From: a virus
Virus record (IMG/VR): IMGVR_UViG_3300006920_000145
Location: 1 to 31,559 of that record
Strand: one strand, 5' to 3'
DNA: 31,559 nucleotides
Made by a program: the position numbers and the translations under genes. Positions 25,845-26,273 of the stretch are shown piece by piece; position 1 is the stretch's first letter, and every line of letters starts with the position of its first letter. The notes below the pieces were generated by a model, which saw only the letters and a program-made list of their open reading frames with translations, made no database searches and was not told the DNA's origin.

Positions 25845-25980
25845 ATTGGGTGGGCCGGGCGCTACTCCGACTTCCGGCTTTCGGGCAATACCCTTGCGGG
25901 CGGAAGCTGCCGGGCTGCCTCGTTACACCACGGGTCTGCTTCCCCGTCGCCACCCAATTCTATTCCGCCTGAGCGGTGTT
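25845..25980 (-). ncRNA. C4-type antisense RNA-like element
   Basis: On the minus strand ATTGGGTGG (25950-25958) is exactly complementary to CCACCCAAT (25845-25853), next to the hairpin and ribosome binding site of the 84-aa gene. Between them lie ACGGG...CCCGT, GTGTAACGAGGC, and CTTCCG...CGGAAG arms enclosing a CCC-GCAA-GGG hairpin. The layout and the translated antisense phrases (RYTTGLLPRRHPI, SGFRAIPL) match what I remember from C4 antisense RNA loci of P1/P7, P4 and many prophages (Rfam RF01695). C4 RNA pairs with the leader of its target gene and blocks translation. Ends are approximate. Confidence 0.55.
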
Positions 25981-26099
25981 ATTAGCGGCGGTGGCGAGGA
26001 GTTGCACCCCGCCTTCACTGCCCAGTGGCTCTCGTTTAAGGCCTCCACCGGCTGGCTATTCAACTCGACGCGGACGCTTGCAAACAGCCGCACCGCCAT
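25923..26099 (-). CDS. 58-aa ORF between repeat elements, C4-locus leader ORF
   Basis: 58 codons from ATG 26099, preceded by GGGCGGGAG in the shadow of a 5-bp hairpin. The first 33 residues (MAVRLFASVRVELNSQPVEA...) are protein-like. The rest (PLITPLRRNRIGW...) is simply the translation of the repeat element at 25951-25980 and of the start of the C4-like RNA. Similar leader ORFs accompany C4 loci elsewhere, as I recall. It may be translated to control the RNA rather than to make a functional protein. Confidence 0.45.
   Translation of the reverse strand: MAVRLFASVRVELNSQPVEALNESHWAVKAGCNSSPPPLITPLRRNRIGWRRGSRPVV
25951..25980 (-). repeat. 30-bp direct repeat with CCGC-TCAG-GCGG hairpin, copy 2
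   Basis: Identical over 30 bases to 26244-26273. Contains the 4-bp hairpin CCGCTCAGGCGG and ends in AATTGGGTG, which pairs with CACCCAAT at 25845-25852. It forms the upstream edge of the C4-like element. Confidence 0.9.
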
Positions 26100-26105
26100 T
26101 GTTCT

Positions 26106-26127
26106 CTCCCGCCCTATAGCGGGGTGT
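26106..26127 (-). repeat. 22-bp repeat with CCCGC...GCGGG hairpin, copy 2
   Basis: Identical over 22 bases to 26371-26392. A 5-bp stem (CCCGC/GCGGG) with loop TATAGG runs into GGGAG, the ribosome binding site of the 58-aa ORF. Directly upstream is CACCCAAT (26131-26138), the complement of ATTGGGTG at 26244-26251. Confidence 0.9.
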
Positions 26128-26183
26128 GGTATTGGGTGGCGAGATATGGCAGCTAACGCTTCTCGCAAGGTCTCAGGGGTGTT

Positions 26184-26246
26184 TTAGCGGATGGGTTCTG
26201 CCACAAACGCCGACATCACGCCGTATCCTTCCATGTTGACCTGCAC
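26184..26246 (-). CDS. possible 20-aa leader peptide
   Basis: Twenty codons from a GTG that is the last triplet of the 30-bp repeat, with an in-frame ATG four codons later (26234). The peptide reads MQVNMEGYGV then MSAFVAEPIR and stops with TAA. It lies between complementary ATTGGGTG and CACCCAAT elements. No convincing ribosome binding site apart from GGCGGAA. It may be a leader peptide or unexpressed. Confidence 0.3.
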   Translation of the reverse strand: MQVNMEGYGVMSAFVAEPIR

Positions 26247-26273
26247 CCAATTCTATTCCGCCTGAGCGGTGTT
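26244..26273 (-). repeat. 30-bp direct repeat with CCGC-TCAG-GCGG hairpin, copy 1
   Basis: First copy in transcription order, two bases after the CCA of the tRNA. Identical to 25951-25980, 293 bp further along. The two copies and the paired CACCCAATACCACA elements (26125-26138 and 25839-25852) suggest duplication of a unit of about 290 bp. Confidence 0.9.

Follow-up and report, generated by a model that had tools for sequence, protein, structure and literature searches.

The DNA analysed here, a 31.6-kb virus fragment of 31,559 nt (the window, to which all coordinates refer unless another record is named), carries a small structured RNA element, unit 1, that almost certainly belongs to a new family of phage RNAs sharing a frame of three stems, P1, P2 and P3. 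Model R2, which comprises 34 members of this family with the window left out, found the element at 25958-25845 on the minus strand with 62.2 bits (E=1.9e-11) over the full model length of 1-126. At E≤10 it had no match in the whole window besides unit 1, and two neighbouring units described below, units 2 and 3, are thereby not members. The single-sequence folding energy of the units was unremarkable (z -1.1 to -1.9), and the case is therefore made by comparison with relatives.

All features of the flagged spot lie on the minus strand. Unit 1, the nearer unit, spans 25845..25958 and is closed by P1, whose 5' arm ATTGGGTGG (25950..25958) and 3' arm CCACCCAAT (25845..25853) are exact complements over 9 bp and covary in relatives. 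A 2-nt linker, CG (25949-25948), separates P1 from the P2 hairpin ACGGG[GAAGCAGA]CCCGT (25930..25947, in the register seen in relatives), which has an 8-nt loop and a stem, ACGGG/CCCGT, that is a pair-for-pair compensated variant of the usual GCGTG/CACGC. This is followed by a variable payload of 58 nt (25872..25929), which includes GTGTAACGAGGC, and by the P3 hairpin GTCGG[AGTAGCGC]CCGGC (25854..25871), whose loop fits the family consensus and which abuts the P1 arm without a gap. The unit thus has the P1 stem, the 2-nt linker and the P2 with a GAA(A)GCAGA loop, together with a P3 of RGUAGCGN loop set directly on P1.

The same layout (P1, 2 nt, P2, payload, P3, no gap, P1') is fixed in ∼100 distinct members. 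In these the linker is exactly 2 nt and usually CG, P2 has 5 bp and the loop GAAAGCAGA (consensus GAA(A)GCAGA), and P3 has 5 bp and the loop RGUAGCGN and abuts P1 directly; the 2-nt linker and the gapless join of P3 to P1 were present in 100 of 102 candidates. Across 35 diverse members, 95.9 % of pair cells were standard and 14 of the 19 pairs were double-changed, giving a covariation score of 0.547, as against 0.128 for shuffles and ≤0.093 for slid structures. All three stems showed compensatory changes in relatives. Selection of these 35 members had required the P2 pattern and some minimum pairing, and two tests with less bias were therefore applied. Beginning from P2 sites, the exact complement of a member's own P1 arm was found downstream at 85 of 112 sites, compared with 3.7 % when arms were swapped between members. 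A scan for P3 only gave 110 sites, 86 of which had P1 and a P2-like stem; 64 of these carried the GAAAGC loop, and in every one of the 64 canonical cases the linker was 2 nt. The P2 stems in this sample covaried (among them GCGTG/CACGC, GCGGG/CCCGC, GCGCT/AGCGC, GTGTG/CACAC, GCACG/CGTGC). Pairing in P1 held in ≥96 % of members for the seven pairs counted from the junction, then fell to 82 %, 71 % and background.

These relatives were first reached through positions 25852-25894, which weakly matched an unannotated gap in plasmids of Roseomonas and gave the pattern GCCGG-NNNN-CGGAGTAGCGCCCGG. The phage contigs retrieved by scanning with this pattern have a second motif in common, GTGGAAAGCAGACAC, and their ends, although different in sequence from contig to contig, are complementary. 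Scanning with the second motif found members in at least 120 IMG/VR viral contigs, and a blast search with the joined motifs added the Pseudomonas phages PotUPM1, Persinger (MT613935 23286-23390), Orimi01 with its relatives and vB_PaeS-D14H, as well as the Ochrobactrum phage POI1126. Exact searches for the window's own repeats returned no match. Because the exact P2 19-mer was absent from 398 Pseudomonadota genomes, nothing similar to the element was found in 5,426 E. coli genomes and strong model matches occurred in only 2 of 150 genomes of one family, the element is, on these genome comparisons, mainly phage-borne. Near-identical copies are found in two Acetobacteraceae genomes (L231 and L232), one of them from Roseomonas mucosa, and one of these copies adjoins an alpha/beta hydrolase gene.

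The family is absent from Rfam 15. Rfam scans of 34 member loci (E≤1 or E≤5) gave no family at the element positions, with the exception of tRNA inside two payloads, and a scan of the whole window with Rfam 15 gave a tRNA as its only match. A search of the open-access literature for the motif sequences and the topic found no description, although the thousands of candidate RNAs listed with PMC8040213 may include the family, and an earlier description may exist outside the open literature.

Around unit 1 the window contains a series of repeats. The 30-nt repeat AACACCGCTCAGGCGGAATAGAATTGGGTG is present in two identical copies, at 26273-26244 and at 25980-25951, the latter comprising the hairpin CCGC[TCAG]GCGG and the P1 arm. 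CCACCCAATACCACA forms the unit ends at 26139-26125 and 25853-25839, and is followed in both cases by a hairpin and a Shine-Dalgarno-like stretch. Behind unit 1 these are the short hairpin GCGG[GAAA]CCGC and the Shine-Dalgarno sequence GAAGGAG (25819..25837), which stand ahead of an 84-aa orphan gene (25557..25811) whose start codon lies 33 nt after the unit. The farther unit, unit 2 (26131..26251), has the P1 arms of unit 1, complementary here over 8 bp (26251-26244 / 26138-26131), around a different core that lacks a canonical P2 or P3. Its end is part of a 34-nt repeat (26106..26139) in which a P1 arm is followed by the hairpin CCCCGCTATAGGGCGGG and then by a Shine-Dalgarno sequence. A diverged copy of this repeat (88 %; 26371..26404) stands immediately ahead of a tRNA-Arg(TCT) gene (26275..26365; ARAGORN, and 45.3 bits with Rfam). 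The tRNA is therefore bracketed by the same two repeats, the hairpin repeat ahead and the 30-nt repeat behind, which the first-pass annotation had missed. Upstream of the tRNA, inspection pointed to a possible unit 3 (26397..26524), likewise missed before, with the stem TTGTGAGG (26524-26517) / CCTCACAA (26404-26397), which differs from the ATTGGGTG/CACCCAAT of the other units by two compensatory double changes, and with a P3-like hairpin, CTG[GTAGCGA]CAG. From their sequences, units 2 and 3 may be decayed or divergent relatives of the family. Between units 2 and 1 lies a 58-aa ORF (25923..26099) of doubtful coding status, for which there were no convincing relatives; a suspected resemblance to prophage proteins was not confirmed. 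No coding explanation for the units themselves was found with Pfam, NCBIfam or tblastn.

Much of what the first-pass annotation had seen at this locus is borne out: the identical 30-nt repeat in both units, the CCACCCAATACCACA ends with hairpin and Shine-Dalgarno-like stretch behind them, the unit ends, exactly complementary over 9 bp for unit 1 and over 8 bp for unit 2, and, with these, a real structured RNA closed by complementary ends whose frame is duplicated. Its identification of this RNA as a C4-type antisense RNA, which would pair with a leader and repress an antirepressor-like operon, does not hold. The short complementary arms, the nested hairpins and the small orphan gene downstream are all reminiscent of such a system, and C4 (RF01695) is likewise a small phage RNA with nested hairpins; its fold and loops, however, differ from those of the family. 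A scan with the RF01695 covariance model gave no match in the window at E≤1 or in 25700-26500 at E≤10, whereas phage P4 as positive control scored 74.9 bits. The complementary arms close a stem inside one RNA and covary in that way in relatives. Moreover, no antirepressor, Icd-like or other family was found for the 84-aa or neighbouring ORFs, the 84-aa and 89-aa ORFs having no family match, and the 84-aa protein had no relative in viral contigs and no PHROGs or NCBIfam match. The C4-like GTGTAACGAGGC is indeed present in the nearer unit, but falls in the part that varies among relatives. The element is thus not a C4 antisense RNA, and we regard a C4-type mode of action as extremely improbable. 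The BPP-1-like structural module, also proposed from the first reading, is present, the major capsid protein being 60 % identical to BPP-1 Bbp17 and matching Pfam GP7. As a search of 46 BPP-1-like or related loci with the model gave no copy, the RNA is not tied to this module and is an accessory element here; the unit is absent likewise from the TerL relatives L002 and L003.

The genomic context of the members bears on whether the element serves the gene that follows it. A tRNA was found within 600 nt of 10 of 100 members, always on the same strand; for the other 90 no tRNA was detected within this distance, many of the contigs being fragments. Three members are 1, 2 and 4 nt away from a tRNA, and a spacing of a few nucleotides is that at which tRNAs stand in arrays. 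Some copies on these contigs are embedded in arrays of tRNA genes and share their strand. Intrinsic terminators follow the element on the sense strand in 8 of 78 cases, compared with 1-3 in controls. The genes downstream differ and on inspection include those for a CsrA-like protein, an acyl carrier protein, a DNA methylase, scaffold-like proteins and others. A cis-acting leader, riboswitch-like or a translational switch, would control the next gene (here that for 84 aa) via the hairpin and ribosome-binding site that follow P1. Consistent with this, a start codon with a Shine-Dalgarno sequence lies within ∼50 nt downstream of over a quarter of members, unit 1 with its 33 nt included, which leaves cis effects possible, and a hairpin frame akin to that of unit 1 also precedes the 58-aa ORF. 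Against it, the downstream genes are unrelated or replaced by a tRNA or terminator, and the payload is not conserved. Overall, a cis-acting role is quite unlikely, and unit 1 is probably not a leader dedicated to the 84-aa gene; for the RNA control of its translation that had been proposed we found nothing specific, relatives preceding unrelated genes, tRNAs or terminators. The varied downstream genes, the tRNAs and the terminators argue instead for a stand-alone RNA, and unit 1 is probably a stand-alone structured scaffold RNA with a payload, as judged from sequence comparison.

The position ahead of start codons also invites comparison with the start-associated sequences of cluster K mycobacteriophages, which are repeated inverted repeats with a conserved motif just upstream of start codons (PMC3203893); in their extended inverted repeats the spacer is 4-13 bp, and hairpin pairing was considered by the authors to be little supported (PMC3203893). 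The likeness is one of position only. The arms of the family covary and enclose a conserved RNA core, and we set this explanation for the unit aside as no more than an analogy.

The payload is 40-195 nt long and mostly unrelated between members, and folds marginally better than shuffled sequence (mean z -0.56); the base preceding P3 is A in 75 of 84 members. Two of the loci (L145 and L160) are 96 % identical in their flanks on both sides and have unrelated payloads, and the same difference in payload, with flank similarity upstream, is seen between L099 and either L112 or L156. Some payload modules recur in different contexts. Perfect T-arms are found in 5 of 100 payloads (0.3 expected), and two payloads exceed the tRNA gathering score of 29, at 31.7 and 31.6 bits (E=0.012 each). 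In these alignments a constant frame thus surrounds a payload that differs between phages, even at one site, and such differences at otherwise near-identical sites suggest that the payload is under selection of the arms-race kind.

Differing payloads between near-identical flanks would also be expected of a DNA-level mobile or recombination cassette, in which the inverted-repeat ends (P1) would be the functional part; in the window, moreover, the flanking repeats alternate around different contents, and covariation alone is also compatible with a structure of single-stranded DNA. The P1 sequence, however, differs at nearly every locus and is merely self-complementary, the conserved part consists of the P2 and P3 loops, G-U pairs are present, and the strand of the element follows that of nearby tRNAs, all of which makes a cassette very unlikely. 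An integron attC-like site was rejected, the boxes being a misfit and the conserved part being the loops. Alternatively, the variable payload could be the guide of a trans-acting, base-pairing sRNA directed at phage or host transcripts. A constant scaffold with an exchangeable sequence suits a guide, and there are terminators after some copies. Nevertheless, antisense matches of the payload to its own flanking phage sequence were not in excess (0.11 ± 0.15 nt over shuffles, 84 loci), and we consider a guide function unlikely.

The scaffold RNA that we favour resembles tRNA in its geometry. The plan of a tRNA runs from acceptor through positions 8-9, D arm and anticodon region to T arm, and that of the family likewise consists of a closing stem, a 2-nt linker, a hairpin, an insert and a 5-bp hairpin directly on the closing stem. 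A P1 that is paired in nearly all members over 7 bp, with pairing declining beyond, also fits this plan, and part of the family stands in tRNA arrays. The family loops, however, are not T or D loops and have no T-loop consensus, and the insert is 40-195 nt long. ARAGORN reported no tRNA in 100 elements, and a CCA after a 7-bp stem and one base occurs in just 2 of 100 members. As the frame copies the tRNA plan, tRNA-processing enzymes, e.g. RNase P, could recognise the stack of P1 on P3. Transcription of the element together with its neighbours would be followed by the release, possibly through such enzymes, of a stable RNA measuring about 100-230 nt. The invariant loops might bind a conserved partner, be it a host protein, the ribosome or a second copy of the element, and the scaffold might display its fast-changing payload, for instance as a decoy for host factors acting on tRNA; these two steps are the least certain of the scheme. 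Our tentative proposal as a whole is that the family, spread over many unrelated phages, represents a class of phage RNA not recognised before. Its two invariant loops would sit on a scaffold that is shaped and processed like a tRNA and that would show a fast-evolving, exchangeable payload to a host factor, for example as a decoy that counters defences targeting tRNA or as the cargo of an RNA assembly. Of the readings of function, we judge two the most likely, namely a decoy for host factors acting on tRNA and a small analogue of the oligomeric GOLLD and ROOL scaffolds; the decoy is for the present a speculative suggestion.

Structured RNAs in phage tRNA islands, such as T4 RNAs C and D, GOLLD and ROOL, are a long-standing puzzle. 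Like the family, GOLLD and ROOL are phage-borne structured RNAs of unassigned function that are often near tRNA islands, and by analogy the family could be a small oligomerising RNA in which copies touch one another through the conserved loops and carry the payload as cargo, either enclosed or on display. In GOLLD, a conserved and a less conserved part are accompanied by a linker that at times carries tRNAs (PMC12286853), and the payloads of the family, in the same niche, include tRNA-like sequences. On the other hand, GOLLD and ROOL measure hundreds of nucleotides and the family ∼100-250 nt, their structures differ, and no Rfam covariance-model match to either was found at member positions, leaving an oligomer of this kind a somewhat improbable reading when taken by itself. 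The T4 stable RNAs C and D (species 1 and 2 RNA) occupy a similar place to the family, coming from the tRNA array of a phage without being tRNAs, and carry no annotated function. RNA C was a candidate homologue on account of its two GAGTAGCG motifs. As homologues, these RNAs and their relatives were rejected, with ≤7.3 bits with model R2 when filters were off; in RNA C the GTAGCG is part of a stem instead of a loop, and the 3' arm of that RNA is a genuine T arm. By comparison, the family described here is small, common and of simple structure, proven by covariation, and as it is present in isolated Pseudomonas and Ochrobactrum phages of culturable hosts the question has become directly testable.

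A number of further observations were made in the course of this work. In T4 rnaC (L224 609-747) GAGTAGCG occurs twice, once in the conserved stem GTAG[CGTCAA]CTAC, and the CGCTA in a hairpin loop of T4 RNA D could pair with the GAGTAGCG of RNA C. In Ochrobactrum phage POI1126 (L100) a tRNA-Met and a tRNA-Gln, at 2249-2323 and 2652-2725, flank the element and are unannotated. One phage contig (L142 2581-13151), in which the element directly precedes tRNA-Val, has 36 tRNA genes, and a tRNA-Pyl(CTA) was called among them. Annotated 'hypothetical protein' genes overlap the element in PotUPM1 (L097 2599-2931) and Orimi01 (L099 2493-2966), and these are probably false or mis-started. In the window, the tRNA-Arg(TCT) gene at 26275-26365 (−) has a long, class II-like variable arm, AGGCAGGGCCTTGCAAGGCTT. 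Such an arm is unusual for an arginine tRNA, and the gene could be a serine/leucine-type tRNA with altered anticodon.

Also at this locus, TATAGGG occurs on the minus strand of the window only at 26612, 26383 and 26118, all less than 500 nt apart. TATAGGG is the core of T7-type phage promoters, and we set aside a T7-like promoter reading of the cluster as the partial annotation of the window contains no phage RNA polymerase. In the leader of the 89-aa gene (25434-25535, −), 16-nt arms (25531-25516 / 25478-25463) with 88 % complementarity form another stem ahead of a GC-rich hairpin and a ribosome-binding site, and the fold of this leader reaches z ∼ -3 on both strands. Finally, two copies (76 %) of a CACAATTTTTT..ACCCC motif, at 26628-26665 and 26706-26743, sit in a non-coding gap of ∼700 nt after the small terminase and HNH genes; the relative L002 has a similar CAATTTTTTCTTGACCCCC at the equivalent place, about 866-885, and the motif is possibly a packaging (cos/pac) or transcription signal.
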